Shown here in pieces: positions 9,117 to 48,607 of a stretch of DNA of 64,000 nucleotides; position 1 is the first letter of the stretch; each line of letters begins with the position of its first letter. A program made the position numbers and the translations under genes. Source of the DNA: Owenia fusiformis. Taxonomy: Eukaryota > Annelida > Polychaeta > Sabellida > Oweniidae. The DNA lies in the NCBI GenBank assembly GCA_903813345.2, contig CAIIXF020000006.1:21833936-21897935 (forward strand), in the 5' to 3' direction. The notes under the pieces are model-generated. The model was not told the DNA's origin. It saw only the letters and a list, made by a program, of their open reading frames with translations, and made no database searches.

Positions 9117-9341
9117 ATGAGAATACCTGTCAAAGACTACTGATCTATTTCAACGCTACATGAAACCATAGAAGTTGACTTATCGAACGTGGAGATTTCC
9201 GTCGAATAGCTAGTTACTTTCTCACATAAACTCAGACTTTAGCTTTATTTATTGCTTCATATTAGGCAAGATTATAAATACTTAGCTAATTACTGGATCT
9301 TAAAGCTCAGCAGAATGAAAAATGTTTTTTGTTCACATTAA
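9117..9341 (+). promoter_or_regulatory. Three upstream open reading frames in the GPCR leader
   Basis: Short upstream frames begin at 9117 (ends 9143), 9160 (ends 9171) and 9315 (ends 9341). The third is out of frame with the receptor and overlaps its first codons, so it would compete with initiation at 9322. This is read directly from the sequence; any effect on translation is inferred and depends on the transcript start. Confidence 0.45.
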
Positions 9342-9848
9342 TGAAACGAATACTACAATACCAGTTGATATGGAGCGGACAAACTCAACTTTCAATCCTT
9401 TAGTTTCTACTAACGAAACAACAACAAACAAGACAGAACATGTATATGTCCCAGCGCAACTTGGAGTCGATCAAATTATATTGGCTGTTTTTTTATCATT
9501 GGTGACGCTTGTCACAATAATTGGAAACATTTGCGTGCTAATTGCAGTGGCAATTGACAAGAAACTTCGGACACCGTTTAACTGTTTTATCGTAAACCTT
9601 GCTATAACCGATGTCACAATCGCCGTGACAGCAATGAGCTTCTACATCATTGACACAGTCCTGGGTTGGTGGCCCTTTGGAGAGGTGGTATGTGGCCTGT
9701 GGATATTATTCGATTTCGCCATGACGTTTGCCTCTGTGTTTACTCTAGTTGCTATATCCGTGGATCGCTATTGGTCGGTATCATGGACGCTTCATTACAA
9801 AAGAAACCACACAAGGAAGAAAGTTGTAACCGTTCTCAGTCTTATATG
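9322..9848 (+). CDS. Aminergic-type GPCR, exon 1 (N-terminus to TM4)
   Basis: Codes for residues 1-175 of a rhodopsin-family receptor of 429 residues. The N-terminus has five N-glycosylation sequons (N7, N10, N21, N31, N36). TM1 holds N69 in the IIGN motif, TM2 holds D97 in NLAITD, and TM3 has the disulphide cysteine C124, D131 and DRY at 148-150. D131 is the position (3.32) that binds the amine in biogenic amine and acetylcholine receptors. The exon stops inside TM4 at the donor G/GTATGA, a phase 2 boundary. The ATG at 9322 is the first in frame; an alternative at 9370 (Met17) has G at +4 but would lose two sequons. The closest type by eye is muscarinic/histamine-H3-like; the ligand cannot be assigned. 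Confidence 0.92.
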
Positions 9849-9976
9849 GTATGAAATTTTGTAAATATTAATTTGTTGTTTTGTAGGCCAAGGTGTATTG
9901 ATGGCTGTTTACCCTCTCGCACAGTGCGAACGTAGTTAAACTTTACTTAGGTTGTTTTACGAACTTCACGGACGTG

Positions 9977-12915: not shown

Positions 12916-13374
12916 ATCGAATACCTCCTCGATGATATACTTAAGTTTTATGAAGGAGATGATAATAATCACCAGTCATAAAAAAGTAATATTCTCGAGT
13001 TTACTTAATGGAATATTCATTAAGATCTCAAGGTTTCCCAATTTATTTCTCATGACTATCTAATTTGTTTATTATTATCACTTACTTATAATGACGCCCT
13101 TAATCAAGTATACCAGGCTGGAATCAAATACAATCCTTTCAAAGCACGCCCATCCATTTGTTTTCTCCGATATCTCCTACAATAGATATGACCCCTCTCC
13201 CCTTTCATTTCAGTCGACTCCACTTACAAACCCCTGATTCCCAAATCCTCGTCATACATATCTTTTTGTTTTAGCCGTTCACCTCTTTCTTTCAAATTTC
13301 ATTCTCACTTCAATTTCACCTTTCATCAGAGTTGGAGTCAGAACAAGTAATAAATACATTTCTTTGTTTTTCAG

Positions 13375-14137
13375 GGTATCGGTCGTCGTTGTATGGGTTC
13401 CGCCCTTTATTTCCGACCGTATACACTTCAGCCAGCCTAACATCTGTATTTGGGAGCCCTCCCAGCATAAGGAATATGTCATATTTGTTGACATCGTTGG
13501 GCACTACTTTCCCTGTTTGTTGATGCTTTTCTGCTACTGCAAGGTGTTTGTTTTCATGCGAAAGCACAGAAAGATTGCGGGGAAGACTTTTGCAAATGCT
13601 GCGACCAGTCAAATAATGTCTACTCAAGCCAGTGGCGAAGGCACCAGCAGAACTGTACACTCGACATCATCGAAGGACCTCAAAGTACCAAATGTTGACC
13701 TGAAAGTCTCAGCTGAACGGGTCGACAAGCTCATGCCACCAGTTGGGGAACTTGCTCGAGGCCCTAATGACATTGCTACTAACCCAATTGACTCGGCTGG
13801 TGACATAACCGCTAATCCTGTTGGTCAAGCTAATTACGTTGGTAACGTACCAAGATCGGGAACTTCAGTTGGGCTCAGTAGAAAAGAAGAGAGACGAATA
13901 TTTGTAACATTGACTTATATTATATTTTCTTATTTGGTTTGTTGGCTGCCATTTTACATAGTTTTTGATATCTCATTTGCTAAACCAGAGTTAATTCCCG
14001 GATGGCTGTACACGTTCATGTTTTGGATGACCTATTTCAACAGTACCCTCAATCCATTCTTGTACGCCTACAGCAGCAAGCAGTTCAAATCTACCTTCAA
14101 GAAAATTCTTGCGTGTAAATTGAAGAAGATTAATTAA
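13375..14137 (+). CDS. Aminergic-type GPCR, exon 2 (TM4 to C-terminus)
   Basis: Codes for residues 176-429, with stop TAA at 14135-14137. It contains the end of TM4, an extracellular loop 2 cysteine (NICIW) to pair with C124, TM5 ending in CYCKVFVFMRKH, and a third intracellular loop of about 95 residues rich in Ser, Thr and Asn. TM6 begins after RKEERR and carries CWLPFY; TM7 has NSTLNPFLYAY (the NPxxY motif). The tail after TM7 is very short and lysine-rich and ends FKKILACKLKKIN, with a cysteine that could be palmitoylated. All family hallmarks are intact, so the receptor is probably functional. The Gi/Gq preference cannot be read from the sequence. Confidence 0.93.
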
Positions 14138-22853: not shown

Positions 22854-24929
22854 CTGAAATAGACACCTACATTTTATTGTACTTTGAAGCGAAATAAACA
22901 AGACGATACATTGCATCGTAAAACTGCAAAGTGCAAATCCTATAAAGAGGCTAATTACTAATGCGCTTTTCCATATTTTAGAGGAGCTCAATCGTTTGTA
23001 ATATTTGATGTTTGTTTGTTACAACAATTTTATATTACCATTGTGACGAGAAAATGTACAATTTTCATTAATGTTTCAAGGAAAGCCTAGACACGGTTAT
23101 AAATGGCAGATAAACAGAAAACTATAACGGACCTACTAGCAAAGTGACTAAATGAGAAATAAAAATGCAATTAGTGGAGAGCACGTTGCCTCCCTTAAAC
23201 GATGGGCTGTACATTGCAGTTTCAGATATAATTAACTAGATGAGCTAGAAGATCAACTAGCACTATCGGAGCCACCAATTAAATACACATAAACATAAAA
23301 ATATATCCTCCCAATAGTAGACAGGGCCGGTGTGAAAGAAATAATGGTCCCCCAGGGATTATGGTCCCCCTTTTTAAAGGCCCTTACTGGCCCTGATTGT
23401 GTATAAGATAATAAGGGAAAGAGTTGTATTTAGGTCACCATATAAATCAATGGAGAGTAGGCCATAATTTGACAGGACTTCCTACCCTTTTACACCGGAA
23501 TCTCGTGACCTCGATTCCATTAATTTTTCTCCCATGTGATCAATTGATTGAGTCATTCAATCGATTCAGCAGTTCTAGATGACCCAATTTGAAACAATTG
23601 GGGGAAAACATTTTGAAAGTAATACGACTTCGTATACTGTAATTTCTAATAACACTAATTATATCCCTTTGGCAAAAGAAAATGAGATAGTATCTCATCA
23701 AATGAAAGTGAAGAAGTTGCGGCAAAACACAACTTGCATTGATCATGTCGTAATTAAAGGCGACGTGAAATCTGGCATGAAAGAGCATATTTTAGCAATA
23801 AGTTCATATTTAGCGTGATCATAAGCTAATAGGCCAAAGAGAACCTAATGAACCTAATGTGTGTAATTTGAGTAAAATAGTATTTAGTTGTGATCATAAC
23901 GTTCTCGTATCATCTTTCTACTTTTTTGTTCTTCAATATGTTTAGTAAAACTTTTCACAGAATGTTCAATAGAAATACTTTCAAATCAAGCAACTAAAAT
24001 GATTGCCATAGTAACACACTGTTTTGACCAAAACATGACACCGGTATTTGGTATTCACGTTATCGCGAAAAACATTCCCCTGGAAAATGGCAGCAATTTT
24101 GAATTTAGCAGCCATCTTGAAAAATCAAATAAAAACGCCTGTAAGGCATCCGCTTAGAAAATCTAAATCAAGTCTGACAACTGGTATTTGAGTTTATTAA
24201 AAATCATGTTTTTCCTGAAAATGCAGGCCAATTTGCAGCTATCTTGAAAATTCCTTTTTGAGCAGTCCTATGTCCCCAATTCTTTAGCCTACATACATTT
24301 TGAAAGAGATCTGTAAACTTGTACATGCGTCATAAAATATAGCATGTTTTTTTCTAAAATAAAAACCATATTGAATTCAGCAACCAATTTGAGAATCTCT
24401 TCTTGAGGATAGTTATATGTCCTTAAGGCATCGGCATATTAAATTTGAACTGGTAAGCGAGTTATCAGAAGATAACATTGTTTTACAAAACAGGCGGCCA
24501 TTTATTTCTGATGTACGTTTTTGAAATGACCAGCAAATGGATCATATGTTAGTGAATGTATGAAGTTTCTAAAACAAATATTAGAAACTTGAAATAAGAT
24601 CACCTTACTTTATGAACCACCCTCGTGAACATGCTACAGTGTCTACAGTGGTGAAACTTCGTCAACATAAATAACATCGAACCCCAAAAATATGCAATGC
24701 AAGGTGCGTTGCTTTTTTGGTACACCCTGTACACATACCCAGTAACATAATTTGATTTCTTTTTTGTTTACTTTTCTATCATCAAATAAGTGAATAGTGG
24801 TAACTAATTATTAGCTTAAGTGGTGCACTGCATGTGACAGTCAATCCTCTTGTGTCACATTGCTACATTGGCATGATACTACTGTTATTGTTACCACATT
24901 TCAATGGCCTTGATAGAAGATTGTCTCAC
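22854..24929 (-). other. Channel gene intron 5, with arm-unit repeats
   Basis: The donor GTGAGA at 24929 and the acceptor at 22854 bound this intron. At 23990-24560 there are about four degenerate units of roughly 140 bp carrying GCAGCCATCTTG, CTGGTATTTGAG and TCCTTAAGGCATC, relatives of the 44455-48545 arms. An orphan mariner-type end, GGTACACCCTGTA, lies at 24719-24731. A plus-strand open stretch at 23579-23818 (79 codons) shows no domain. Confidence 0.7.
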
Positions 24930-25468
24930 CTAGAACTGGTATTGCATCGGGAGTTGGAGGCATTGTCTCGGCCACCATGAGTAGGAACACCACCAAGGCC
25001 AGGAGGATTGTAATCTCCAGATTCACCTTCTCTCCAGATTCCACAGGCAAGAAGAACCCCAAGTATGAGATCAGGTAGATCAACACACAGGGATAGATCA
25101 TGTTGAACACATAGAACTGACTCCTACGTTTCATGTTAATCGTGAACGTGACGTCGGGATACGGTTCCTCACAACAGGCGTATTTTTTCACATTGCGATG
25201 AGACGTGATGTTTTCAACGAACCACTCCTGATTGTCTGGGTTGTAATAGACAGTATTTGCCATGGATTCATTGTATATGATGTTTAGTTCAAATCCACTA
25301 TATGTCCACGAGATGAAAATGATCTCACAGGATTGTAGATCAAAGGGGAAGTATTGTACGTTGAGGGTACAGTATGTTTTTACGAGAGCCGGGACCATCC
25401 AGAGGACATTCCCTTTATTGTCTACTATAACGTTTGTGATCATTCTGTCATTGAAATTCTCATCTGCA
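24930..25468 (-). CDS. nAChR-like subunit, exon 5 (ligand-binding domain end, TM1, TM2)
   Basis: Acceptor CTAATTTTAG at phase 2, donor at phase 1. It contains loop A/E sequence, the cys-loop CTLNVQYFPFDLQSC with exactly 13 residues between the cysteines and the FPFD motif, and the loop B tryptophan in SWTYSGFE. The loop C segment YACCEEPYPD has the adjacent cysteines that define alpha-type nicotinic subunits. TM1 follows RRSQFYVFNMIYP. TM2 is GEKVNLEITILLALVVFLLM; its GEK start is the cation-selective signature. These features support an acetylcholine-gated cation channel alpha subunit, with subtype unresolved. Confidence 0.95.
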
Positions 25469-27242
25469 CTAAAATTAGAGACATTCATACATGTATGTTA
25501 TCTTATTTACAATAAGCTATTATAATGCGATGTCAGTTATGTTTGGTCAAAATCAAACAATGCAAGACAAAAGACTGACAATATCCATTGGTTATAATTA
25601 GAAAACGGCAACTCCATGGAGTAGCAAATTCCACCGAACAAGACATATTGTGATAAATAGCGGCCATCTTCTTTCTTGACATTTCTCTTGAGCAGAGCTC
25701 CTTTGTCCCGCGGTATCAGCATATAAAAGAACCAAATCTGTCCACTGGTATTTAATTATCAAAGATTATATTTTTACGTAAATTTTCAATTCAGCTGTCA
25801 TCTCGAAAATTTATTTTCAACCAAAACTTCTTTGTTCTTAAGCATTATCGCATGAAATTTCAATCAACCCATCCACTTGTATTTGAGTTTTCAGAACTTA
25901 CATTTTACGAAAAATGGAGGACACTAGCTGTCGTCTTTTTTAATTGTAAAAAATCTTTCTTGAGTAGAGCCCCCGTTTTCAAAGGCATCAACATATAGAA
26001 TTCAAACCAAATCCGTCCACTGGTATTTGGGTTATCAACAATTTTGTTTGAAAATCAGTGGCCATCTTAGAAATCTCTTCTTAAAAAATCTCTTTTTGTC
26101 CTAAGGCACCAAGACAGGCACCAGGGCGAAACTGCAACCCCCTTTTGAGCCCAGAACATCTTTGTCTTTTTGGTTATTTTCCCTGGGATTTTTCGTTGAT
26201 AGTACTTAGAATTCCTTGCAAAGATGATATAAATAATAGATTATCACGAAAATCAGATTTAGAAAGTCTTATCAACGTCATCACAGGTTTTACATAAAGT
26301 GTAATTACATGTAAAACTGATCTCACTTAATCATGGACGACAAAGATAAATTTTCCTATGATTGCTATGAGCGATTACCTGTCAACAAGTCAGTGGCAAA
26401 GTACGCTAAATTAACACTGATTAACTTCATCCAATCAGAATATACGTGCAATCCTTGTCCTCAAAGATGACCGAGGGCTTAATTCTGTTACATGAAACAA
26501 ATGTGGAGGTGATAACGTTCAATCTACGGCTCTGATCTAGATGACGTTGGGCTTTCAGATTTCAGATTCACTCTTGTTATGAAGCGAGAGCGACGACAAT
26601 CGATAGAAATGAGATCTAAATTCGTTTTAACAAATTGATATATCAATTGGATTAAAAGCATTCATATTTGAATTTATACACTACAGGGTGTGCCGACACA
26701 CCCTCCCCAGTTTGAAGAATAAATTTTAATATTGGTACTTCCTTTTTTGATTTTAGACTGAACTATGCTTTTGATGAAAAGTGCAATAATTGATACACAA
26801 CTCCTTTAAATTGTGACTTTTGGCTCGGGATCAGCAGAAGGATTTTATTATAATTGTAAATGTATCATTGTGCAAATTAATCCACAGGAACATAAATGGG
26901 CTATAAGAGCCGAAAAATATTGTATGCGCTTTCAATAACAAAATAGTTAAAATATTCTTATAAAACACAATATTGGAATGAAAAGTCAGTTTTCAGTTTA
27001 CACGATCTTGCAAGATGCATACCTTGGAAAGCCTGCATACGGTATACTTTACACATACATATCATGAAGTATGTTTACGTTAATCTATACCTTTTGGATA
27101 TATTTTTTCTCCCATCTACTTTTACACAGTAGTATTTGGGTACAGTTTCTATTTCCTTCGTCCTTTTTTCATACTCATTCTTTTATCATATAAGACTCAT
27201 CGAAATCAATATTAAATATTATATGCACATAGAAATACTTAC
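25469..27242 (-). other. Channel gene intron 4, with arm-unit repeats
   Basis: At about 25550-26110 lie four degenerate units carrying CGGCCATCTT, CTTGAGCAGAGCTCC and CACTGGTATTTGA, the same family as 23990-24560 and 39560-39850. At 26685 ACAGGGTGTGCCGACACACC may be a mariner-type end or a small hairpin. Nothing coding is recognised. Confidence 0.65.
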
Positions 27243-44454: not shown

Positions 44455-44805
44455 GCAGTTTGTTCGTCCATTCGTCTGTTCATATGTTCGTTCGTTACTC
44501 AAATACCGATTGACGGATTTGGTACATATTTTATAGACATATGTCTTAAGGGTGCAGGACCTCTGTTGTAGAATAAATAACTAATATGGCCACTCTTTGA
44601 TATCTAAATTACCAGTTGACCGATTAGTCCCTGATCTGGACCCTCTGAAAAAAAGTTTTGTTGTCCGATACTTTCCCACATAAAATGATTGTACCGTTTG
44701 AAAGAACAGACTTCCCTCTTAAAGAAAACACCTCTTCTATTGATGTAAACAGGGGCAAAAGGCACCAAAACGGGGTTAGACAAGGTGGCATTCTGAAGTC
44801 TCACT

Positions 44806-45665
44806 TTCTTGTCATCACGATTCCAGGTAAACCATCAGACTGATTTACTTCAAGTTTTCACACATGTTACATGGTAAGAAGTTCTAGAGCTGATTAACTT
44901 TGCGGCGGCCATCTTGCATTCTGGCGGCCATCTTGGAATTTTTTTCAGATAAATATTGTCATCGCGATTCCACAAAAACCACATAACAGATGTACTTCAA
45001 ATGTTCACACATGTTACATGGTAAAAAGTCCTAGATATCATTATTTTTTCGGTGGCCATCTTGCATTCTGGCAGCCATCTTGGAAGTTTTAAGATAAATC
45101 TTGTCATCACAATTTCAGGAAATCCAAACGGATTTACTTCAAATTTCCACTCATGTTACATGGTAAGAAAATATAGAGGTGAATAATTTTTCGGCAGCCA
45201 TCTTGCATTCTGGCGGCCATCTTGGAAATTTTGGGATAAATCTTGTCATCGTGATTCCAGGAAAACAACCTAACAGATAAACTTCAAATTTTCACACATG
45301 TTACATGATATGAAGTTCTAGAGCTGATTAATGATTGCATTCTGGCGGCCATTTTGGAAGGTTTATAGATAAATCTTGTCATCAAGATTACAGAAAAACC
45401 ACTTCACAGTTTTACTTCGAATTTTCACACATGTTACATGGTATGAAGTTCTAGAGCTGACTAACTTTTCGGTGGCCATGTTGCATTCCGTCGGCCATCT
45501 TGGAAGTTTTTAGATAAATCTTGTCATCACGATTCCATGAAAACCACGTAACAGTTTTACTTCAAATTTTCACACATGTTACATGGTAAGAAGTTATAGA
45601 GCTGATTAACTTTTCGATAGCCATCTTGCATTCTGGCGGCCATCTTGGAAGTTTGTAGATAAATA
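44806..45665 (+). repeat. Left inner array, about six units of 145 bp
   Basis: Each unit reads in order: CTTGTCATCACGATTCCAGG, ACTTCAAATTTTCACACATG, TTACATGGTAAGAAGTTCTA, then paired GGCCATCTTGCATTCTGGCG and GCCATCTTGGAA motifs. The CCATCTTG core resembles the YY1-type motif (CCAT on a GC-rich flank), with two copies per unit. The array runs to within a few bases of the CXC coding sequence. Confidence 0.9.
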
Positions 45666-45675
45666 TAAAATACAG

Positions 45676-46152
45676 TCAAAGCATTTACCACCAACAAAGG
45701 ATGCTCTCATTCTCCATATAAATAGAGCCAACTATCAGGCCTATATTTGGCGAAACGCAGGCAAATCAATGATTGATTATCAATCCCCCACATTACATGG
45801 TTGGACATTCAAAGGGAATAAACTACAAATTAAGTGGATGGAAAACAGTCCTGCCCCACAAGAAATAATGGAGCTTGTTGCTTGTAGTTGTAAAGGAGTG
45901 TGTGACTCAATGAGATGTAGTTGTAAGAAACAGGATCTCATTTGTGGAAGTTCATGTAAGTGCCGCAAAGGTGTGTGTGAGAACTGTCCAACCCATCAGC
46001 ACGATGATGTTGATGAGAGCGACAATGAATTTGAACCAGTTGATGACACCATTACACCATACGTTGAAGATCAGGAAGAAAATGAATTACCTGAAAATCT
46101 CCTACCTGACAACTGGATGAACCAACTTGTCAAAGTTGATGCCATAATATGA
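45676..46152 (+). pseudogene. CXC/tesmin-like cysteine-rich C-terminal fragment
   Basis: An open frame of 158 residues without an obvious native start; it begins after an acceptor-like ATACAG and the first Met is at 45769. Early residues read LPPTKDALILHINRANYQAY then IWRNAG, followed by HGWTFKGNKLQIKWM, a PAPQEIMELV segment and ten cysteines in ACSCKGVC, MRCSCKK and SCKCRKGVCENC. A very acidic tail follows (DDVDESDNEFE). The same order (RANYQAxxWR, GW, KWMxxxPAPQ, CxCK repeats) occurs at the C-terminus of long uncharacterised proteins common in marine invertebrate genomes. The CXC part resembles zinc-binding tesmin/TSO1 domains. It is probably the last exon of a truncated element-borne gene. 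Confidence 0.6.
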
Positions 46153-47329
46153 ATTATCTCACCCTGTATATACACTGGTGATCCGCTTCTTCTATCACAA
46201 AGTTTATTTTGGTTCAGTAGATTTTTCTATACATTATTTTTATGTCACCACCACTAGTGATTGGGTGACATATTGTAATAGCTTTGAACGTTTATCTTGA
46301 CACTGTTCAGTAGTTAATGTGTACTGTATACTTAACAAGGTGTGGTGACATTTTTGCATGTTTCCTCATCGTCACTACTAATGAAAGCTTATGTTGATAT
46401 TGTAGCAGTGTTTTTAAGTTCTTTTTGTTGGTACAATTAGTTTCCAAACCCTATACTTATATCGATCTGACACACAGTTTTAGTGCAGGTTTAAGTGATT
46501 TTTGTTGATTATTAAACGCAAAGAGCACATGTGTCTTGAACTCGCAACATTGTGGATACAGAGCCCATTCACATAGTTTGACATGCTGGTGCTCTGAACC
46601 AGCTCGTTAGTTAATATCTGACTAAGAGACAGCTTGCTTTCCCGATGAAGAAACGTTATCTGCAGCTTTTATGAGTACTATAGTATCTACAACTATTTTT
46701 GATCTTATGAGTATTGGATATCATTATTTTCAATTTTTCTTCAACATGTATTTTAATGACTTCAGTATGAATGGAATGTCCCTCGGAGTTGTGGTCTTTG
46801 ATGAGGAATTGGTCATTGAACAGTGTGGATGCTGTTTATTCCCATATTAGATTGTCTTGGGATATTCAGGTTTGATTTTTGTTTGCCAGTTTTACACTTT
46901 ACAGTTTGCTTTTCCCACTAGGTTGCTTTACACTTTTTTCCTTTCTCATTTGTCATTTTTGTTTATATTTAGTAAGGATATGATACGCAGGTCTCTCCTT
47001 CTGTGTGATCACCTGTCCAGAAGATAATTCAACTGCATGAAGAACATTTCGTTGACATGATGCACAGTGAAAGGTTTTCCACACATTTACAATTTCGTTT
47101 AAAAGAGCTTTAATTCCGTTATATACTCAGATCAAGGCCAATTTAGCATACATTTCGCTCTCAAAAATCACTGTGCAATATTGGATTTCAAAGAAATGTT
47201 TGACATTTCAATAATCTTTTTTCTTTTTGATGAAATGTAGTTATTTATTCTAAAAATCAATTGATGTCATACACAAAATGCATTTAAGTGGTATAAAGTA
47301 CAGAAGCAGAGTAAAAATATGTATTTTAG
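46153..47329 (+). other. Non-coding core of the 4.1-kb element
   Basis: Follows the CXC frame and may be its 3' untranslated sequence. ATGTCACC at about 46243 pairs with GGGTGACAT at about 46264 as a small hairpin, and GTGGTGACATTTTT recurs at about 46345. Nothing else coding is seen. Confidence 0.5.
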
Positions 47330-48060
47330 AATATCACCATGTGTTACCCCATTGTAGCGCCTCTTGCCCATGTTTCTATCAATATAAAACATGATATCAC
47401 ACACCAAATATGCATTTATGTCAAATTATGTGGTTTAAAATTCAGAAAAATAGATAACATTCTCCTTAGAATACCACCTTGTGTAACCCCACTTTACTGC
47501 CCTTTGCCCCTGTTTATATCAATATAAAAGGTAGCATGTAACCTTCCTTGTAACATGTGTAAAAGTTTCAAGAAAATCAGTAAAGTGGTTTTCCTGGAAT
47601 CACAATGACAAGATTTATCCAAAAAACTTCCAAGATGGCCGCCAGAATGCAAGATGGCCACCGAAAGGTTAATTAGCTCTAGAACTTCTTACCATGTAAT
47701 ATGTGTGAAAATTTGAAGTAAATCCGTTTGGTTTTCCTGAAATCGTGATGACAAGATTTATTTTTAAACTTCCAAGATGGCTGCCAGAATGCAAGATGGC
47801 CACCGAAAAAATAATGAGGTCTAGGACTTTTTACCATGTTACATGTGTGAACATTTGAAGTACATCTGTTATGTGGTTTTTGTGGAATCGCGATGACAAT
47901 ATTTATCTGAAAAAAATTCCAAGATGGCCGCCAGAATGCAAGATGGCCGCCGCAAAGTTAATCAGCTCTAGAACTTCTTACCATGTAACATGTGTGAAAA
48001 TTTGAAGTAAATCTGTCTGATGGTTTACCTGGAATCGTGATGACAAGAAAGTGAGACTTC
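47330..48060 (-). repeat. Right inner array, four 145-bp units plus duplicated middle block
   Basis: Four inverted copies of the left-array unit lie at about 47530-48050, with CCAAGATGGCCGCC and CAAGATGGCC(A/G)CCG motifs. Inside of them, 47330-47525 holds two diverged extra copies of the middle block (GTGTAACCCCACTTTACTGC, CCCCTGTTTATATCAATA), which also occurs once in each arm. The right array is shorter than the left by about two units. Confidence 0.85.
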
Positions 48061-48607
48061 AGAATGCCACCTTGTCTAACCCCGTTTTGGTGCCTTTTGC
48101 CCCTGTTTACACCAATAGAAGAGGTGTTTTCTTTAAGAGGGAAGTCTGTTCTTTCAAACGGTACAATCATTTTATGTGGGAAAGTACCGGACAACAAAAC
48201 CCCTTTTCTAGAGCCCTTTTGGAAATCAGATCGGGGACTAGATGGGGTTCATTGCGTTACATATGAAGATATTTCAAGATGGCCGCTGAATTTCAAAATG
48301 TAGCCATTTCTTGTAAAAATGTAACACTTTATAACTCAAATACCAGTTAACGGACTACATTTAGGTTCAAACTGTATAGACAGATGCCTCGGGACATAAA
48401 TCCCTGCAAGTAAGATGGCCGCCGAATTTCAAAATGGCCGCCATTTTTCATAAAAAGGTAATGTTTGATAACGTAAATACCATTTGACGGATTTGATTCA
48501 AATTTTATATGCTGATGCTTATGTAGTAAGGAGGTCTGCGCTTAGAACTAGTCTGATTTAGCTAATTAAACGCTGTAAAGTAACGTGTAAAACATAACCC
48601 TTTAATT

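Follow-up and report, generated by a model that had tools for sequence, protein, structure and literature searches.

A Non-Autonomous DNA Transposon of Owenia fusiformis with a Retained Transposase Tail, Most Probably of the AcademX Lineage

Introduction

The DNA analyzed here, referred to below as the window, is a stretch of 64,000 nucleotides (nt) from the annelid Owenia fusiformis (assembly GCA_903813345.2, contig CAIIXF020000006.1, positions 21,833,936 to 21,897,935 of the forward strand), in which positions are counted from the first letter. The element found at 44625-48240 is a cut-down copy of a DNA transposon that has spread through the genome, and in which the tail of the transposase, a cysteine-rich region of CXC type, has been retained. 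It is very probably a DNA transposon that became non-autonomous by internal deletion, and that belongs to a lineage with an XPG nuclease, most probably AcademX in the Academ superfamily. The evidence comes from the termini and target site duplications of the dispersed copies, and from full-length relatives in the same genome, in most of which a similar tail closes a long frame.

If this is true, the genome's long proteins with a CXC end can be understood as transposases into which a flap-type nuclease is built. This would account for the copy number of these proteins and would yield testable catalytic residues, while the TAG ends and the 3-base-pair (bp) duplication would provide a terminal rule for finding elements that are mostly missed by Pfam. 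Long CXC-ending proteins are common in the annotations of marine invertebrates, and are not known to have been characterised; the present analysis covers one genome.

Limits, Termini, and Arms of the Element

The features of the element are listed below, with L numbers denoting loci fetched from the same genome (498 megabases in 525 contigs).

44625..48240, no strand: whole non-autonomous element, 3,616 bp, with limits set from the ends of other copies and from the 3-bp duplication
44622..44624, no strand: target site duplication GAT, left copy; the paralogous empty site (L033) has GAT only once
48241..48243, no strand: target site duplication GAT, right copy
44625..44638, plus strand: left terminal inverted repeat TAGTCCCTGATCTG; the 27-nt left end has 146 matches in the genome (up to two mismatches; reversed control 0)
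48227..48240, minus strand: right terminal inverted repeat, TAGTCCCCGATCTG in the minus-strand reading; the 28-nt right end has 132 matches (up to two mismatches; reversed control 0)
44647..45232, plus strand: left inverted arm, 586 nt, which pairs with the right arm at 95% complementarity
47623..48208, minus strand: right inverted arm, 586 nt, complementary to the left arm
44807..45667, plus strand: tandem array of six units, each about 145 bp long, within and past the left arm, with CAAGATGGC motifs
47549..48048, minus strand: 147-bp unit repeated 3.4 times in tandem within the right arm
45673..46152, plus strand: relic of a transposase C-terminus, with an LPPT..DA linker and a ten-cysteine CXC-like region, stop codon included
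46187..46187, no strand: point at which longer copies (L008, L009, L010, L011, L018, and L019, six of the 13 fetched) carry an extra 0.86-0.94 kilobases (kb), approximately, absent from the window

The comparison of copies places the termini at 44625 (TAGTCCCTGATCTG) and 48240 (CAGATCGGGGACTA), which are near-inverses of each other and of the TAGTCCCYGATCTG type that characterizes the window family, and the copies in which both ends could be read span from TAGTCCC to GGGACTA. The flanking 3 bp are identical in all eight elements that have both ends inside the fetched stretches, that is, the window copy, L007, L012, L015, L016, L017, and L040 of the window family, together with L041 of a sister subfamily. 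The flanking triplets of these elements are GAT, TAT, GTT, TAA, TTG, TAC, TTG, and AAA; the ends were located by fixed motifs, and L008-L011, L013, L014, L018, L019, and L026, in which at least one end is missing or lies outside the stretch, were excluded from the count. The terminal inverted repeats, target duplication, and dispersed copies that define a non-autonomous DNA transposon are all present.

The search of the genome with the joined flanks of the window copy returned no close empty site. The surrounding repeat has a copy (L033, 70% identical) that is unoccupied, with one GAT across the junction. This paralogous empty site is in the same genome as the element; the lack of an empty site in other individuals had been named, in an earlier note on this DNA made from the sequence alone, as a finding that would speak against its proposal.

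That note had given the element bounds of 44455-48545, or 4.1 kb, which are too wide, because the matches to the arm query (44455-45232) at 39 places outside the window all start at position 153-172 of the query. The sequence outside 44625-48240 is another, common repeat that received the insertion, and its AAGATGGCCGCC-like units are the reason for its arm-like appearance. At these 39 places, which with the window itself make up the best 40 scored of 1,786 candidates, the identity over the arm is 97-98%, and the genome-wide recurrence of the arm at this level shows that the arms are not due to chance. The inverted arms themselves had been correctly recognized in the earlier note, whose estimate of about 97% identity over roughly 500 bp gives way to the measured 95% over 586 nt.

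The arm units of about 145 bp, with their CAAGATGGC sites (15 in the whole element), are candidate binding sites. A further motif, CAAGATGGCCG, which is similar to YY1-type sites like the one in the human L1 promoter, has 22 matches in the window (up to one mismatch) in comparison with 0.38 expected, and is dense in the arms (44906-45647 and 47631-47949) and in the outer repeat (48275-48440).

Copy Number and Content of the Window Family

The genome contains at least 146 left and 132 right ends. Among 100 places listed for each of the two ends, 79 left ends are paired with a right end within 25 kb, and 64 of these 79 pairs are 3.2-5.5 kb long. The 13 fetched copies fall into distinct size classes. 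A window-family CXC segment in the same orientation is found within 6 kb of 43 of the 92 exact left ends, and none was detected near the other 49, a marginal majority. Arms lying mostly without a CXC gene had been named in the earlier note as a finding that would speak against its proposal of a mobile family; non-autonomous deletion derivatives, however, would look alike. Seen from the opposite direction, 42 of 47 window-family CXC loci, taken from the best 150 scored of 494 candidates, have an exact left end upstream.

In L015, L016, and L017 the whole CXC segment is absent, yet the 3-bp duplications are perfect, so the segment is dispensable in cis for movement. Given that copies without it have also transposed, the CXC segment retained in the window copy is probably a passenger.

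Three candidates for an autonomous copy were examined and rejected. In L026, most of the frame of 516 amino acids (aa) comes from an insertion that bears a reverse transcriptase and interrupts the CXC region; L040 (8.2 kb) contains a reverse-transcriptase-bearing insert and extra sequence with no match to the relatives; and L041 belongs to the sister subfamily without CXC. Neither L040 nor L041, the two loci fetched from among the long left-right pairs, contains any transposase beyond the CXC relic.

The reverse-transcriptase-bearing insertions (PF00078) within transposon copies lie at L026:3570-5117 and L040:960-3452. A second non-autonomous family (L024:867-4186 and L025:715-4000) has a CXC-coding segment in both of its inverted arms; its ends are TAGTC, and CAA and ATA are the duplications. 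Among the matches listed, 13 inverted pairs of CXC segments were found, with starts about 0.85-1.8 kb apart.

The CXC-Like Frame of the Window Copy

The open frame of the window copy, at 45610-46149, has 180 aa from stop to stop and begins within the arm repeats; from 45673 it has 159 codons with ten cysteines, in agreement with the cysteine-rich frame described earlier. When four full-length relatives (P0001-P0004, 1,505-1,622 aa) were compared with the window by tblastn (expectation value, E, up to 1e-3), only a C-terminal piece was recovered, and no complete transposase. The piece corresponds to window positions 45652-46035, with 31-41% identity and a best E of 5e-18. All four relatives are bracketed by inverted ends, and the 3-bp duplication is exact in three. 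Both facts speak against an element of foldback-like or satellite type, without transposase ancestry, in which the frame would be open by chance. Such an element would fit arms composed of tandem units, each about 145 bp long, but is very improbable.

The CXC region of the full-length relatives closes one uninterrupted frame, so the relic of the window copy appears to represent a truncation by internal deletion, rather than the survival of a last exon, as had been supposed in the earlier note.

The label CXC is based on the pattern of cysteines. The Pfam TCR (CXC) model reaches E = 1 in the relative P0001 (10.1 bits against a cut-off of 23.5), and gave no match to the frame of the window copy, with E up to 1 allowed. 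The structure predicted by AlphaFold for the 159-aa frame, without an alignment, has a mean predicted local distance difference test score (pLDDT) of 44, and was not used. In their clustered cysteines and C.C...C pattern, these regions resemble the Tesmin/TSO1/LIN54 CXC domain, from which they differ in having a single cysteine-rich unit, and in a TCR score that stays below the cut-off defining the family and appears in one relative only.

When stop codons are left out, the copies of the CXC segment have 2-7 changes each, in 480 bases, relative to their majority sequence, which suggests a recent spread. The ratio of non-synonymous to synonymous polymorphism (pN/pS) in 13 copies is 0.49 in pairwise comparison and 0.50 relative to the majority (bootstrap 0.36-0.77), a value that does not separate weak constraint from no constraint. 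These copies were drawn from the best arm and CXC matches, a sample that favors intact frames.

The relic might, nevertheless, be a kept gene, which is compatible with the transposon reading proposed here. The truncated KP protein represses or titrates the transposase of the P element, and a short DNA-binding CXC protein might act on the full transposase in the same way. A ratio near 0.5 would be in keeping with this, as would the absence of an internal stop from 19 of the 30 CXC matches that cover at least 150 of the 159 residues. The other 11 contain stops, however, the ratio derives from just 16 synonymous and 34 non-synonymous changes in a sample biased towards open frames, and it is near that of unselected sequence with a transition bias (an estimate rather than a computed value). 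The copies without CXC have transposed too, and a kept gene is improbable on the whole.

Full-Length Relatives and Their Ends

The relatives were found through a search with CXC and a search with the nuclease block, and ten loci were fetched (L020-L023 and L034-L039), with extra flanks added for L020 and L022. Their frames are free of stops and encode 1,425-2,087 aa. A CXC-like C-terminal region is present in eight of the ten, L035 and L037 being those without it. Inverted TAG...CTA ends were found around seven, with exact 3-bp duplications in six and an imperfect one in the seventh, as follows.

L020: duplication ATA/ATA; inverted match of 13 bp only
L021: duplication TGA/TGA; 708-bp arms, 95% identical
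L022: duplication TAA/TAT, imperfect
L023: duplication TAA/TAA; arms 76% identical
L034: duplication TAT/TAT; 708-bp arms, 98% identical
L035: duplication TTG/TTG; 674-bp arms, 98% identical
L037: duplication TCA/TCA; 523-bp arms, 96% identical

The end scan required TAG and an exact duplication, and its background in shuffled flanks was 0-0.05 hits per shuffle. Two further pairs that it produced, a weaker alternative in L020 and a weak one in L022, were not adopted. The arm limits obtained independently by BLAST in L034, L035, and L037 are within 1 bp of the scanned ends.

Inverted TAG...CTA ends thus enclose five of the eight CXC-ending frames, and in four of these five the 3-bp duplication is exact, a result that supports, for this genome, the idea that CXC-ending proteins are encoded by mobile elements. 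The further proposal, that this mobile family is recognized by the arms of the window copy, is not supported: each full-length family has its own arm sequence, in which nothing but the terminal TAG is common to the window family, and no full-length gene was found between window-family ends, L040 and L041 being the long pairs covered. The L035 and L037 genes, bracketed and full-length, lack the CXC cysteines and keep an LPPC..S..HGW linker. The existence of two such genes means that CXC is not obligatory.

Protein Blocks of the Relatives

The middle block common to the ten proteins contains D512, D515, D681, D934, and E938 (P0001 numbering, here and below). D512, D681, and E938, identical in all ten, form a putative catalytic triad of DDE type. 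DUF6589 of Pfam overlaps this block in L039 (E 4e-10, above the cut-off) and in L036 (E 1e-4, below the cut-off), and no mention of this family was found in the open-licence PMC literature searched. Towards the N-terminus, CxxC and HxxC motifs are seen in the alignment of four proteins, the first pair being missing in several of the ten.

The C-terminal block has acidic residues at D1234, D1333, D1357, D1359, and D1414 in all ten proteins, and at D1189 and E1331 in nine, an order that we take to be that of the metal-binding residues of FEN1/XPG. When the profile of this block was compared with the PDB, five of the six matches at E up to 10 were EXO1 (best E 0.002), the alignment being located at the VFD...K..ER.RR and GCD..S motifs. 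The likeness to the FEN1/EXO1/XPG family consists, then, of these two motifs and the order of the seven acidic residues. The differences are the weakness of the similarity, the best PDB match depending on the two motifs together, and the fusion to a transposase-like block. By motif order, a putative XPG-type nuclease block is present in all ten relatives, and it is absent from the window copy. The full-length relatives suggest that the long, unnamed proteins with a CXC end in this genome are transposases, and that a flap-type nuclease forms part of them.

In the 2,087-aa CXC-ending relative (L039:1413-7673), an OTU-like cysteine protease domain (PF02338, E 2.8e-7) is inserted at residues 740-892, after the first conserved aspartate of the DDE-like block and before the second.

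Comparison with Known Superfamilies

The AcademX lineage is reportedly due to Kapitonov and Jurka (2010) and Kojima (2020). AcademX is described as having duplications of 3 or 4 bp, with the two Academ lineages differing by a helicase versus a nuclease (PMC10045372), a 3-bp duplication is given for Academ (PMC5199201), and Academ is reported to be plentiful in bivalves, two annelids having few frames (PMC10294476). The present elements agree with this description in the putative nuclease instead of a helicase, in the putative transposase of DDE type, and in the duplication length, the 3 bp found in all eight of the both-ended elements (seven in the window family and one in the sister subfamily) being within the range given for AcademX. 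The CXC-like tail and the common TAG end were not found in these descriptions, and the window copy differs in having no transposase. The fit to the published description is good, and the elements are most probably AcademX.

The same elements might, instead, represent a superfamily separate from Academ and as yet unnamed, with DDE, XPG, and CXC parts. Its transposase would have N-terminal zinc motifs, a DDE block, a FEN1/XPG nuclease, and a CXC tail reading the subterminal arm units, and it would cut at TAG...CTA with a 3-bp stagger, the tail having been lost in L035 and L037, and an OTU protease gained in L039. No description of a CXC tail or common TAG end on such transposases was found in the open-licence PMC literature, which is not proof that they are unpublished, and none of the papers listed there for CXC, transposase, and XPG is on this subject by title; apart from DUF6589 in two of the ten proteins, Pfam coverage is nil. 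The agreement of domain content and 3-bp duplication with the AcademX description (PMC10045372) makes a separate superfamily unlikely.

Other superfamilies with a 3-bp duplication, such as PIF/Harbinger, CACTA/EnSpm, or Zator, share that feature with the present elements. PIF/Harbinger has a transposase of the DDE_Tnp_4 type and a TWA duplication, and CACTA/EnSpm has CAC ends. No such transposase model of Pfam, nor any other, matches the relatives, the duplications (GAT, TAT, GTT, TAA, TTG, TAC, and AAA) are variable rather than TWA, the ends are TAG rather than CAC, and the relatives have an XPG-like block. Measured against these features, an origin in any of the three is very remote.

In its inverted ends, target duplication, many dispersed copies, and internal deletion, the window element resembles the non-autonomous DNA transposons and large miniature inverted-repeat transposable elements (MITEs) with subterminal repeats. 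At 3.6 kb it exceeds the typical MITE in size, and it keeps an open piece of transposase.

A number of points weigh against a nuclease-bearing transposon of the AcademX lineage. The ten relatives were picked for long frames, and not at random, and L036, L038, and L039 have no TAG...CTA ends in their fetched flanks. Among the bracketed loci, the two flanks of L022 disagree (TAA versus TAT), the inverted ends of L020 amount to a 13-bp match with a weaker alternative pair present, and two genes (L035 and L037) are without the CXC cysteines. Pfam and NCBIfam gave no transposase or XPG match in the relatives, and the whole relative proteins gave neither a transposase nor a nuclease match in the PDB, while the EXO1 match is significant only when summed, its separate motif stretches having E values of 18 and 2.1. 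The alignment to the empty site in L033, at 70% identity, is heavily gapped immediately to the right of the junction, and no autonomous copy with window-family ends was found. Membership in Academ rests on domain order and duplication length.

In the most likely mechanism, the DDE part would cut the element out and join it to the target with a 3-bp stagger, a figure read from the 3-bp target duplications. The nuclease part may cut or trim a strand during excision, and the CXC tail and the N-terminal cysteine and histidine motifs may bind the DNA or the ends of the element. The window family would, in turn, be mobilized in trans by a transposase supplied from elsewhere.

Other Features of the Window

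Two frames of the window, at 9319-9861 and 13238-14134, match parts of a rhodopsin-type seven-transmembrane receptor (PF00001), and a frame on the minus strand, at 24904-25497, matches a Cys-loop ligand-gated ion channel (PF02931 and PF02932).

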